This document shows, in pieces, positions 12,032 to 15,612 of a stretch of 64,000 nt of DNA. The stretch lies in NCBI RefSeq assembly GCF_000820845.2, contig NZ_CBXV010000006.1, positions 1-64,000 of the forward strand, in the 5' to 3' direction. The stretch's first letter is position 1. Every line of letters begins with the position of its first letter. The notes under the pieces are model-generated. The model saw nothing but the letters and a program-made list of their open reading frames with translations. It had not been told where the DNA came from and made no database searches. The position numbers and the translations under genes were made by a program. This DNA comes from Pyrinomonas methylaliphatogenes (GTDB lineage: Bacteria > Acidobacteriota > Blastocatellia > Pyrinomonadales > Pyrinomonadaceae).

Positions 12032-13039
12032 TCACTGAACGCGCGTATCCGTATTGGTGCGGATGCGGAGCTTCTGTCCGCGCGTCAAGCGCACATCCTC
12101 ACCGCGCGAAGCGATCGCCCCGCCTGCACCGGCAGCCGCGCCGATCACCGCGCCGATGGCCGCCCCCTTGCCGCCGCCAGCGATCGCCCCGATCAACGCC
12201 CCGAGACCGGCGCCGGCACCGACCTTCACGGCGTCATCCTTAGTCGAATCTTTGCCCTTCACGCCGCCTTCCGGATCGACGCTGCCGGCGTTTGAAACGC
12301 CCTCGGGCACGACCTCGATCAACTGCGCTTTGATGTTCGCCCACCGACCATCGGGCAGACGTATCTGCTCGAAGTCGAGCTCGAGTTCAGCCGTCCCACG
12401 CACTCTGCCGGCCCTTTTGACGCGCTCGACTCGCCCGTCGAGTATCGCTCCAGCGTATTCGGCGGGCTCAACGATACGCGCTTGGAAGCGATCGCCACGC
12501 TGACTTGCGTCGGTCGAAAGATTGGTCAGCAACTCGGCAACCATCGTCGTTCCCGATGGGATGTAAATGGCCCCGCCGCTTGCCGCAGTTGAAGAGACGT
12601 TCGTCGAGGGCGCGTTCGAAGGGATGTTCGCCGTTTGTCCCTCTTGCGACGTTTCGGTTGCGGTTTCGGTCGCGTTCGATGCAGCATCGCGGCGCGCGAG
12701 ATTGGCCGGGATCGTCGAATCGAAGTCGCGCCCGTCATAGCCGGCTTCATAGCCGGCTTCGAACCCTTGACGATAGCCATCACGGTAATCCTCGAGCGAG
12801 CCGTAGTTCGGCGAGTAGGCTCGATCGGCCCGCCGGTAATCCTCTTCATCGCGGAAATCGCGCGGGGCGCCGCTGTTTCGATCACGCAGTCCGGCCTGAT
12901 AGCCATCTGAGTAACCCGTTCGATAACCGCGTTCGAGCGTCGCACGTTGCTGCGGCGCGGTCGATTGCGCCGCGATCGCCGGAGTCCAAACCAACGCCCA
13001 GATGAGCGCTCCAACGGCCATTTTCTCCATCAGCTTCAT
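12032..13039 (-). CDS. Secreted protein with GY-rich repeats and glycine-zipper C-terminal region
   Basis: A 335-residue exported protein of unknown function. A signal peptide (about 1-24, cleaved near AIAA) is followed by two Gly-Tyr-rich segments, YRTGYSDGYQAG and YRDGYRQGFEAGYEAGYDG, at about 39-100. A Ser/Thr/Ala-rich linker comes next, then a beta-rich domain at about 155-245. After that is a glycine-zipper hydrophobic stretch (GALIGAIAGGGKGAAIGAV), which often packs into or against membranes. The short C-terminal tail is polar. The combination resembles acidobacterial envelope proteins, but I know no assigned function. It is monocistronic and divergent from the cysteine desulfurase. Confidence 0.75.
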   Translation of the reverse strand: MKLMEKMAVGALIWALVWTPAIAAQSTAPQQRATLERGYRTGYSDGYQAGLRDRNSGAPRDFRDEEDYRRADRAYSPNYGSLEDYRDGYRQGFEAGYEAGYDGRDFDSTIPANLARRDAASNATETATETSQEGQTANIPSNAPSTNVSSTAASGGAIYIPSGTTMVAELLTNLSTDASQRGDRFQARIVEPAEYAGAILDGRVERVKRAGRVRGTAELELDFEQIRLPDGRWANIKAQLIEVVPEGVSNAGSVDPEGGVKGKDSTKDDAVKVGAGAGLGALIGAIAGGGKGAAIGAVIGAAAGAGGAIASRGEDVRLTRGQKLRIRTNTDTRVQ

Positions 13040-13175
13040 CGGTCCATCTCCTCTCGCTCATTCGAACCAACGCTCTTGACGAGGCGGCGCGAGCCTTCAC
13101 GCGATTTTACGCTAATCCATAAACGCGCATTGTGCAAGCGCCGACCATCAATAAAAATCGGCCCCGCAGTCCAGC

Positions 13176-13205
13176 TTGACGCTTCGACGATCATCTGGCT
13201 AGACT
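13176..13205 (+). promoter_or_regulatory. Promoter of the iron-sulfur cluster genes
   Basis: TTGACG (13176-13181), an 18-bp spacer and TAGACT (13200-13205). The leader is about 110 bases and contains the small palindrome CAGACCGTCTG, a possible regulator site, about 35 bases after the -10. Confidence 0.65.
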
Positions 13206-13317
13206 CGAAACCGAGCCACTCGACCAATCAGATGCCGACAGACCGTCTGAAGTTGTTGCCGAGCGGATCTTTTGGCGCTTCCTGACGCATCTAACTAACC
13301 GGCAAGGTCGCTTTTCG

Positions 13318-14535
13318 ATGAAACGCCGAGTCTATTTGGATCACAGCGCGACGACGCCCATCGACCCGCGCGTCGTTGAAGCGATGCTGCCCTATTTGAC
13401 CGAGAAGTTCGGCAATCCGTCGAGCGTGCATCTGTTCGGGCAAGAGGCGCGGGCGGCGGTCGATCGCGCGCGTCAGTTGGTGGCCGAGTTGATCGGCGCG
13501 CAGCCTCAGGAGCTGATCTTCGTTTCGAGCGGAACGGAGGCGAACAACCTAGCCATTCGCGGCATCGCCGAGCGCGCTGCCCCGTATGGACGCCACATCA
13601 TCACCTCGGCGATCGAACACCCTTCGGTACGCGGCGTCTGCCAAGCGCTAGAGCAACGCGGGTGGGAGGTGACGCGCTTGCCCGTCGGCGAAGATGGCCT
13701 CGTGCGCGTCGAAGACGTGCGCGCCGCCATCCGTCCTGACACGGTGCTCATCACCATCATGCTCGCCAACAACGAGATCGGCACGATTCAGCCCATCGCC
13801 GAGATCTCCCATCTCGTGCGCGAAGAGCGCCAGCGCGGCCACCGCCATCTCTGGTTTCACACCGACGCCGTGCAGGCTGCCGGACGCATGGCGATCAACG
13901 TCGCGGAACTGGGCTGCGATCTGCTCTCGCTATCGGGGCACAAACTTTACGCCCCTAAGGGCATCGGCGCACTCTACGTGCGGCGCGGCGTGCAACTTGC
14001 GCCGCAGATGCTCGGCGGCCATCAAGAGCGCGACCGCCGCGCTGGGACTGAAGCGGTGCCGCTCATCGTCGCTTTCGGCAAAGCGGCGGAACTCGCACGT
14101 CAGGAACTCGACGCGCGGATCGAACGCATGCGCGCGCTGCGCGATCGGTTCGAAAGAGGGGTCGCCGAGCGCATCACGGATGTCGTTTTCAACGGCCATC
14201 GCGAGCGCCGTTTGCCCCATCTGTCCAACATCTCTTTCCGGTACATCGAAGGCGAAGGGTTGCTCATCAATCTCGATCTTCAAGGCATCGCCGTCTCGAC
14301 CGGATCGGCCTGCTCATCAGGCACGCTCGAACCTTCGCCCGTCATCCGCGCCCTCGGTCGCGACGAAGAGCTTGCGCGCGGTGCCGTGCGCTTCAGCCTC
14401 GGCAAAGATACGAGCGAAGAGGATATCGATTACGTGCTCGAAGTCCTGCCGCAAGCGGTGGAGAGTTTGCGCCGCATCTCTCCGCTCTATCATAGAGCCT
14501 TGGGCGAGCGCGCTGAAAGATCGCCATCGAACTGA
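13318..14535 (+). CDS. Cysteine desulfurase (NifS/IscS family)
   Basis: A 405-residue PLP enzyme that removes sulfur from cysteine for iron-sulfur cluster or tRNA thiolation. Lys209 in SGHKLYAPKG is the PLP lysine, and Cys332 in STGSACSSGT carries the persulfide. The short cysteine loop and overall length match class I IscS/NifS proteins. It is followed 50 bases later by an IscU-like scaffold, so the pair is a minimal cluster-assembly unit. There are no iscR, hscA or fdx genes nearby. It has a promoter with a leader of about 110 bases. Confidence 0.92.
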   Translation: MKRRVYLDHSATTPIDPRVVEAMLPYLTEKFGNPSSVHLFGQEARAAVDRARQLVAELIGAQPQELIFVSSGTEANNLAIRGIAERAAPYGRHIITSAIEHPSVRGVCQALEQRGWEVTRLPVGEDGLVRVEDVRAAIRPDTVLITIMLANNEIGTIQPIAEISHLVREERQRGHRHLWFHTDAVQAAGRMAINVAELGCDLLSLSGHKLYAPKGIGALYVRRGVQLAPQMLGGHQERDRRAGTEAVPLIVAFGKAAELARQELDARIERMRALRDRFERGVAERITDVVFNGHRERRLPHLSNISFRYIEGEGLLINLDLQGIAVSTGSACSSGTLEPSPVIRALGRDEELARGAVRFSLGKDTSEEDIDYVLEVLPQAVESLRRISPLYHRALGERAERSPSN

Positions 14536-14585
14536 CTCGACGAAACAGATCGCGCTGGCTCGATCCGGCGCGAACGATCGCGAAG

Positions 14586-14948
14586 ATGTATTCCGAGATC
14601 TTCAAAGATCATCTGACTCATCCGCGCAATGCCGGCGAATTGGCCGATCCAAGCGTGGTCGTCGAAGAATCGAACCCGATCTGCGGCGACCGATTGCGAC
14701 TTGCGTTGCGCGTGTGCGAAGGGCGAATAGAAGAGGCTCGATTTCTCGCTTATGGATGCCCGCCGACGCTCGTCTGCGGATCGATCATCACGGAGATGAT
14801 CGCCGGGTTGAGCGTTCAAGATGCGGCGCGTTTGACGCGGCAAGACTTGCTCGACAAATTGGGCGGGCTCCCATCGCGTAAGATGCATGCTGCCGCGCTC
14901 GCCATCGAGACGTTACGCCTCGCACTTGAAAGACTTCGCGGCGACTGA
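14586..14948 (+). CDS. IscU/NifU-N-like iron-sulfur scaffold, variant lacking the third cysteine
   Basis: A 120-residue protein with the IscU fold. The start MYSEIFKDHLTHPRNAG is typical. Cluster-ligand positions are Cys33 (NPICGD) and Cys58 (YGCPP). At the place of the third canonical cysteine (normally HC in KIHCSxLA) this protein has His101-Ala102 (KMHAAALA). An additional Cys64 sits in VCGS where IscU proteins usually have serine, and Cys44 is also extra. It may hold a cluster with a different ligand set, or serve another sulfur-relay role. It is co-directional with the cysteine desulfurase and 50 bases downstream. Its last codons and stop are echoed 67 bases downstream. Confidence 0.8.
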   Translation: MYSEIFKDHLTHPRNAGELADPSVVVEESNPICGDRLRLALRVCEGRIEEARFLAYGCPPTLVCGSIITEMIAGLSVQDAARLTRQDLLDKLGGLPSRKMHAAALAIETLRLALERLRGD

Positions 14949-14964
14949 AGCGGTCGCTCAGATC
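14934..14964 (+). repeat. Gene-end echo, unit 1 (scaffold 3' end)
   Basis: This holds the codons Leu-Arg-Gly-Asp-stop of the scaffold gene and continues CGCTCAGATC. It is repeated with four mismatches at 15001-15031. Confidence 0.85.
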
Positions 14965-15000
14965 GAGCCGACGGTTGAGTGTTTCAAGAAAGATTTCGAG

Positions 15001-15031
15001 CTTCGTGGCGACTGAAGAGGGCGCTCAGATC
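15001..15031 (+). repeat. Gene-end echo, unit 2 (overlaps maf 3' end)
   Basis: A direct repeat of 14934-14964 at a distance of 67 bases. It again encodes Leu-Arg-Gly-Asp-stop on the + strand and at the same time contains the maf stop codon on the minus strand. Confidence 0.85.
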
Positions 15032-15612
15032 CTCTCCTCGCGAAGCAACCTGTAGACTGACCGGAGCGGCAGCCCGACGACGTTCCAATAATCGCCATCG
15101 AGTTTCGAGATGAAAAGCGCTGCCCGGCCCTGTACGGCATAGGCTCCGGCTTTATCCATCGGCTCGCCAGTCGCAACATACCAAGCGATCTCTTCTTCGC
15201 TCATCTCCGCAAACAGGACGCGCGTTCGCTCATGCGCGACGAGAGATCTTTTGTTTTCAGCTCGCACGAGCGCGATCCCAGTCAAAACATCGTGCCATCG
15301 CCCGCTGAGCTTGCGGAGCATACGGCGTGCGTCCTCTTCATCGCGCGGTTTACCCAGCATCTCGCCCTCGACGACGACGACCGTATCGGCACCGAGCACA
15401 AGCCCGCACAAGCGCCTTTCGGCGACGAACATCGCCTTCTCCCGCGCGAGGCGCTCGACATACTGCACGGGCGTCTCATCCCGTTTCACCGATTCATCGA
15501 CATCCGCGACGCAAGTTTCGAAGGGCCAGCCGACGGCGCGCAATATCTCGGCCCGCCGCGGACTGGCCGAAGCGAGGATGAGCGGTTCGAAAAATCCGAT
15601 CGCATCATTCAT
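15025..15612 (-). CDS. maf: Maf-family nucleotide pyrophosphatase
   Basis: A 195-residue Maf/YhdE-type protein that hydrolyses dTTP, UTP or modified nucleoside triphosphates to monophosphates. The signature [12 protein letters not shown] is at the N-terminus. [17 protein letters not shown] and the [13 protein letters not shown] region follow. The ATG at 15612 is nine bases after AAGGA. A TTG six bases earlier is too close to that site. It is convergent with the scaffold gene. Confidence 0.88.

Follow-up and report, generated by a model that had tools for sequence, protein, structure and literature searches.

The locus described here lies near the start of contig NZ_CBXV010000006.1 of Pyrinomonas methylaliphatogenes (GCF_000820845.2), within a window, that is, the whole analysed stretch of DNA, of 64,000 nucleotides. 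Two consecutive genes encode a cysteine desulfurase and a short NifU_N/IscU-type protein, hereafter the window protein, in which alanine occupies the position of the third IscU cysteine; their coordinates, and those of the residues discussed below, are collected in Table 1. Terminator-like sites are absent from positions 13000-15100, the gap between nifS and nifU included. On the 5' side of the pair, the opposite strand encodes a protein without a Pfam match, a SAM hydroxide adenosyltransferase, and a citrate synthase, and on the 3' side the nifU gene is followed by Maf (minus strand) and then by DciA, GatC, and GatA (plus strand). None of iscR, iscA, hscA, hscB, and fdx was found among the neighbour genes inspected beside nifU, and the arrangement is thus not that of an ISC operon. 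The minus strand at 12032-13039 encodes a 335-aa protein without a Pfam match that is conserved 5' of nifS in many Pyrinomonadaceae loci.

Table 1. Features of the nifS-nifU locus (coordinates in the window) and of the related Thermoleophilia fusion genes (coordinates given by locus handle).
Feature	Position	Strand	Basis
NifS/IscS-type cysteine desulfurase, 405 aa, upstream partner	13318..14535	+	Aminotran_5, TIGR03402, catalytic residues
Intergenic gap from nifS to nifU, 50 bp, both genes on the plus strand	14536..14585	+	ORF coordinates
Cys102-less NifU_N/IscU-type protein, 120 aa	14586..14948	+	ORF with ATG start, Pfam NifU_N
Cys33 codon, first canonical IscU cysteine	14682..14684	+	Alignment; 39/39 distinct close homologues
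Asp35 codon, IscU metal-site Asp	14688..14690	+	39/39 distinct close homologues
Cys44 codon, private to the P. methylaliphatogenes genome	14715..14717	+	1/39; usually Arg or Lys
Cys58 codon, second canonical IscU cysteine	14757..14759	+	39/39 distinct close homologues
Cys64 codon, conserved extra cysteine, helix 59-72	14775..14777	+	39/39; helix from AlphaFold2 model
His101 codon, IscU metal-site His	14886..14888	+	39/39 distinct close homologues
Ala102 codon, replaces the third IscU cysteine	14889..14891	+	Alignment; Ala 38, Ser 1 of 39
NifU_N-MnmA fusions (Thermoleophilia)	L066:3962-5227, L067:3962-5452, L071:3983-5482		Single open frames

NifU_N (PF01592) is the sole Pfam domain of the window protein (E 1.4e-29, 103.3 bits against a gathering cut-off of 22). 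Its upstream partner is a class-V aminotransferase (Aminotran_5, E 4.2e-82 in Pfam) that scores 529.8 bits against the NCBIfam NifS model TIGR03402 (cut-off 530.75) and has both catalytic residues, Lys209 and Cys332, intact, which substantiates the adjoining cysteine desulfurase reported in the initial annotation. In alignments with the solved IscU proteins of A. fulgidus (4eb5) and M. thermoacetophila (7c8m), the motif KMHAAALA of the window protein falls opposite KMHCSNLA, so that Ala102 does stand where IscU has cysteine, as had been claimed; the same alignments equate Cys33 and Cys58 with IscU cysteines 1 and 2, and Asp35 and His101 with the conserved Asp and His. An AlphaFold2 model of high confidence (pLDDT 95.8) assigns Cys64 to helix 59-72 and Ala102 to helix 97-119, and superposes on A. 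fulgidus IscU (4eb5_C) with Z 22.2 and an rmsd of 1.0 A over 119 residues. More generally, the IscU/NifU N-terminal domain (4eb5, 7c8m, and E. coli 3lvl) has the same fold (Z 19-22, rmsd 1.0-1.6) at 34-37% identity.

None of the relevant NCBIfam models claims the protein: it scores 68 bits against TIGR01999 for IscU (equivalog cut-off 192.4), 83.3 bits against TIGR02000 for NifU proper (cut-off 273.3), which, with its ferredoxin and Nfu domains, reaches about 290 aa against the 120 aa found here, 62.8 bits against TIGR01994 for SufU (cut-off 92.5), and 98.9 bits against TIGR03419 for clostridial-type NifU (cut-off 187.9), which is still its best match. In fold, in the Cys/Asp/Cys/His residues of the metal site, and in the NifS/IscS-type desulfurase encoded alongside, the window protein agrees with IscU. 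The latter is described as having "three invariant cysteine residues" (PMC13423590), C37, C63, and C106 in E. coli, whereas the window protein has alanine at the third position, a conserved Cys64, sub-threshold NCBIfam scores, and no ISC accessory genes beside it. Because the fold and the partner are those of IscU and the three-cysteine definition and the NCBIfam cut-offs fail, the window protein is an IscU-type variant and not an IscU.

Three other systems invite comparison. SufU of B. subtilis and M. tuberculosis shares the NifU_N fold (Z 15-17) and is a Zn-dependent sulfur acceptor in which the first cysteine receives sulfur, a mode that may also apply to the window protein. SufU has nevertheless been defined by an insert of 21-23 aa between the second and third Cys and by Lys in place of His (PMC10216065), whereas the window protein aligns with IscU without gaps, has His101, is paired with a NifS-type rather than a SufS-type desulfurase, and shares its genome with a separate SUF-associated NifU_N gene. 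The minimal IscS-IscU-like system (MIS) is likewise a bare desulfurase-scaffold pair, but is described as serving Fe-S biogenesis (PMC12192291). Finally, NifU_N domains fused to MnmA in Thermoleophilia (L066, L067, and L071) share Cys33, Asp35, Cys58, His101, and the absence of Cys102 with the window protein, but differ from it in having Gly102, Cys69 instead of Cys64, and the fused MnmA, and are 34-39% identical.

Conservation was assessed by a profile search of 119 Pyrinomonadaceae genomes, an unbiased test for orthologues, which returned one in 40 genomes (39 at E <=2e-48 and one cut by a contig end); all 40 sequences were inspected, 30 from loci found by searches and 10 fetched. Cys64 is present in 40/40, and position 102 is Ala in 39, Ser in one, and Cys in none, so that the alignment of acidobacterial homologues suggested in the initial annotation reveals Cys64 without Cys102 as common to all 40 family orthologues. 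Cys64 and Ala102 also coincide in 33/33 acidobacterial loci from a pattern scan of named genomes, in which the informative names are mostly Pyrinomonadaceae; this count is biased because HAAALA formed part of one of the two search patterns. Among 39 distinct sequences more than 52% identical to the window protein, Cys33, Asp35, Cys58, Cys64, and His101 are each found in 39/39. Cys44 occurs in one of the same 39 and was rejected as a ligand on that count; of the two extra cysteines noted earlier, both are indeed present, but Cys44 is not a shared feature and only Cys64 matters. Nine codon-level pairs gave dN/dS values of 0.04-0.30, with some dS values near saturation, and the frames are intact in many independent assemblies; a pseudogene or sequencing artefact was therefore rejected, which disposes of the inactive pseudogenes that had been named as a possible refutation. 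In-frame stops in the matches of two genomes (G116 and G120) were taken, from their coordinates relative to the ORFs, as natural stop codons at the ends of the matches. By coordinate comparison, NifU follows directly on NifS, with both genes in the same orientation, in 38/40 genomes; in one exception (G067) the two lie on different contigs, and in the other (G113) NifU lies at a contig end. No viral copies were found. Other Pyrinomonadaceae loci (L125, L128, and L137-L142) encode a second NifU_N paralogue of about 200 residues that keeps the third Cys and has Ala (or Ser or Cys) at the Asp35 position.

Beyond the family, 149 distinct core sequences from the Acidobacteriota searches and fetched stretches were compared, a non-random set made up of the best matches plus others picked for diversity and including part of the listed places. 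Cys102 is absent from 69 of the 149, replaced by Ala, Gly, Ser, Val, or, once, a gap, and 68/69 of these retain Cys33-Asp35-Cys58-His101. The 69 sequences are spread over Thermoleophilia and at least 12 acidobacterial family codes (f1, f2, f8, f10, f16, f18, f27, f55, f58, f65, f68, and f70). Across the same 149 homologues, Cys64 is never found where the canonical set of three cysteines is complete (0/69), but is found in 47/80 sequences lacking at least one of them. Of those 47, 46 are without Cys102, and the remaining one (L265) keeps Cys102 and has Asp at position 33. Position 64 is otherwise variable (A, S, T, V, L, or Y), and one f16 sequence (L194) has Cys67 in place of Cys64. As far as sequence comparison can tell, this distribution fits the replacement of a lost cysteine, with few origins. 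Members of f10, f27, f55, f70, and most of f8 have neither Cys102 nor an obvious replacement thiol, so that a third thiol can be no strict requirement.

The Pyrinomonadaceae clade is supported at 98 and 96 in two trees, and the f16 clade is placed apart in the best trees, on which Cys64 changes 3 to 4 times and Cys102 6 to 8 times. Cys102 has been lost repeatedly. A single clade of the Pyrinomonadaceae and f16 Cys64 sequences is not rejected (p-AU 0.235), so that the coupling of Cys64 with the loss of Cys102, striking though its counts are, may rest on very few events, perhaps two or three. Two wholly independent origins of Cys64 with Ala102 were considered, and convergence is not claimed as proven because the single clade stands and the independent-pairs test yielded too few pairs. 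Elsewhere in the Acidobacteriota, a few sequences (L254-L257, L203, and L265) keep the third Cys while the first is replaced by Thr, His, or Asp; in L265 this is combined with Cys64.

Studies of characterized proteins give these residues a meaning. In mouse ISCU, a Zn or Fe ion is reported to be held by Cys35, Asp37, Cys61, and His103, with Cys104 unnecessary for metal binding (PMC6687725; PMC8924461), and these four ligands correspond to Cys33, Asp35, Cys58, and His101 of the window protein. The C104S/C138S variants of ISCU are reported to undergo no persulfidation by NFS1, and two papers name Cys104/Cys138 as the persulfide receptor (PMC6687725, PMC11021402). By homology, the window protein keeps all the predicted metal-binding residues and has lost the residue that receives sulfur in mitochondria; since the metal-site residues are invariant, it is the sulfur acceptor alone that is missing, either moved or dropped as far as can be predicted, with the metal site intact. 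The acceptor in bacterial IscU is less settled, being called unknown in one account (PMC9769115), and A. vinelandii IscU with any single cysteine mutated is cited as still taking sulfur (PMC2854127), so that the mechanism could stay the same without Cys102. For Zn-SufU, the reported acceptor is the metal-site thiol Cys40/41, the first cysteine and the equivalent of Cys33 (PMC10216065). Of the two explanations offered by the initial annotation, a different set of cluster ligands holds only in part: a first metal ion needs none, the four ligands being invariant in 39/39, but a full [2Fe-2S] cluster would need Cys64 as a stand-in, Cys106 being described as a usual IscU ligand (PMC13423590). The alternative of a variant sulfur acceptor fits better, the missing residue being the counterpart of the reported ISCU persulfide receptor.

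The genomic setting suggests what such an acceptor might serve. The genome also contains a SUF locus of its own, with two SUFBD_core genes close to genes for a SufS-like protein and another NifU_N protein, and the window protein is absent from 79/119 family genomes. In contrast, a NifS-type match (E <=1e-40) is present in 116/119, a count that includes weaker paralogues; the NifS proteins of NifU-less genera are 58-71% identical to that of the window, and one genome (G008, locus L237) retains the order of citrate synthase and NifS with NifU missing. Given the separate SUF locus, the absence from 79/119 genomes, and the retention of NifS without NifU, the window protein is probably a dispensable accessory of NifS rather than the main scaffold. 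In 3/3 Thermoleophilia loci, NifU_N with Gly102 is fused in a single open frame to MnmA, the tRNA 2-thiouridylase; the MnmA portion lacks a separate start ahead of its SGGVDS motif and belongs to the CC-CxxC-C type defined in PMC11784392, as does the separate MnmA of the P. methylaliphatogenes genome. No mnmA gene lies beside the window nifU; it is found on another contig (C8) of the same genome. In f16 (L188-L195), the Cys64/Ala102 NifU lies near genes for a MocA-like NTP transferase, a HAD hydrolase, a periplasmic binding protein, and a radical SAM protein, with an XdhC gene nearby in L195, a molybdopterin-binding subunit beside it in L191, and no adjoining NifS. In R. capsulatus, the desulfurase NifS4 is reported to sulfurate the Mo cofactor on XdhC (PMC2997495). 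These associations of the Cys102-less relatives point to sulfur delivery over housekeeping Fe-S assembly.

Within Pyrinomonadaceae the same connection is looser. No Mo-cofactor gene occurs among the neighbour genes of the window nifU, and MoCoBD is found in 109/119 family genomes. XdhC is found in 95/119, namely in 38/40 genomes with NifU and 57/79 without it (four of the 24 XdhC-less genomes were named by elimination). Co-occurrence with XdhC or Mo-hydroxylases was rejected as support for delivery within the family, since the difference follows genera, most XdhC-less genomes belonging to one NifU-less genus (g9). TusA matches were obtained in 2/119 family genomes, one of them a weak match in P. 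methylaliphatogenes itself; as B. subtilis is reported to need no carrier between desulfurase and MnmA (PMC11784392), the absence of TusA alone proves nothing. A radical-SAM neighbour common to the f16 NifU and to the NifS of NifU-less Pyrinomonadaceae was dropped, no named NCBIfam cut-off having been reached.

Taken together, we favour a functional, clade-specific carrier of sulfur, or possibly of Fe-S, that is fed by NifS, depends on a metal, and has its third thiol relocated to Cys64; this reading is tentative, falling somewhat short of an even chance, and that of a re-liganded Fe-S scaffold stands close behind it. The window protein would dock on NifS like IscU, as its modelled fold suggests, and a bound Zn or Fe ion might, by analogy with ISCU and SufU, draw in the persulfide of NifS Cys332; sulfur would then be taken by Cys58, Cys33, or Cys64 and passed to a sulfur-using enzyme, such as the tRNA thiolase MnmA or the Mo-cofactor sulfuration system XdhC. 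That the carrier may deliver sulfur instead of building clusters for the whole cell is suggested by the fusion and the neighbourhoods of its relatives. Such a carrier accords with Cys64 without Cys102 in 40/40, a metal site conserved in 39/39 and, more widely, 68/69, and the split of Cys64 between 0/69 and 47/80; with the NifS pairing in 38/40, the dN/dS of 0.04-0.30, the IscU fold, the separate SUF locus, and the 40/119 distribution; and with the MnmA fusions (3/3), the XdhC/MocA-like/HAD context in f16, TusA in 2/119, and the acceptor data for ISCU and Zn-SufU. Against it stand mnmA on another contig, the lack of an adjoining Mo-cofactor gene, XdhC and MoCoBD being common without NifU, the lineages without a third thiol, the MnmA-fused domains without Cys64 at 34-39% identity, the A. 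vinelandii single-cysteine mutants, the p-AU of 0.235, and the weak TusA match in its own genome. A broader extension, that Cys102-less NifU_N proteins form a sulfur-relay family in which sulfur from the desulfurase travels on a thiol site with a bound metal to the enzymes of tRNA 2-thiolation and Mo-cofactor sulfuration, in the role of TusA-TusE in E. coli and with the third thiol rebuilt at position 64 in Pyrinomonadaceae and f16, seems rather unlikely.

The competing possibility of an Fe-S scaffold in a minimal NifS-IscU pair, with Cys33, Cys58, and Cys64 (plus Asp35 or His101) holding the cluster and Cys64 replacing Cys102, is doubtful but to be taken seriously: it draws on the IscU fold and the NifS partner, on the finding that close relatives, almost without exception, have exactly three of the thiols 33/58/64/102, and on the outlying L265, in which Cys64 is paired with the loss of Cys33 instead. 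IscU is, moreover, reported to tolerate ligand changes, the M. thermoacetophila D40A/H106A variant still holding a cluster (PMC13423590), and minimal NifS-NifU systems are described, for example in H. pylori (PMC9769115); nevertheless, the genome has its separate SUF locus, roughly two thirds of the genomes in the family do without the protein, many Cys102-less relatives have two thiols only, and hscA, hscB, fdx, iscA, and iscR do not adjoin the gene. It is distinctly improbable that the protein is a SufU-like, Zn-dependent acceptor working through Cys33, with Cys64 irrelevant to catalysis, neutral or structural, and fixed in one ancestor. Zn-SufU does accept sulfur on the equivalent of Cys33 (PMC10216065), the metal residues are invariant, a single origin for the clades with Cys64 withstands the tree test (p-AU 0.235), and the change from Ala or Ser to Cys would be easy because small residues are usual at position 64; yet Cys64 is invariant in 39/39 at a position that elsewhere varies (A, S, T, V, L, Y), is found in 0/69 sequences with the full canonical set and in L265 with Cys33 lost, and the features that define SufU are missing, there being no insert between Cys58 and position 102 and His101 not being Lys. 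Least credible of all is a degenerate IscU remnant that has lost its catalytic cysteine and binds NifS or metal as a regulator, or does nothing: the orthologue is confined to 40/119 family genomes and is missing in G008 (L237) at a locus that is otherwise much alike, but intact frames in many genera, dN/dS of 0.04-0.30 in nine pairs, an invariant metal site, and the conserved NifS pairing all argue against decay.

The variant bears on a wider question. In reviews, the three IscU cysteines are described as invariant, and anaerobic experiments with human ISCU are reported to identify the third as the residue that accepts sulfur directly and specifically; the proteins compared above form a natural set, kept by selection, that has lost exactly that cysteine and retained the metal site and the desulfurase partner. 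In the parts of the literature covered by our search, neither a natural Cys102-less IscU nor a NifU-MnmA fusion was found. At least one clade, a group of soil Acidobacteria, has fixed a cysteine elsewhere, in a neighbouring helix, and thus offers a natural variant with which to test which residues sulfur transfer needs. Should the delivery role prove true, it would suggest a sulfur route to MnmA and Mo-cofactor enzymes in bacteria almost without TusA.

Two further arrangements of NifU_N were seen in the course of the searches. In Nevskia and relatives (L069, L070, and L072; e.g., L069:2747-4360), NifS carries a fused NifU_N domain in which the first Cys and the Asp are gone and the third Cys is kept, and a second NifS-like gene lies just 5'. 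Likewise, four f10 loci (L171, L180, L251, and L252) encode NifU_N without the third Cys, and in L180 and L252 the gene adjoins one for an SBP_bac_11 solute-binding protein.
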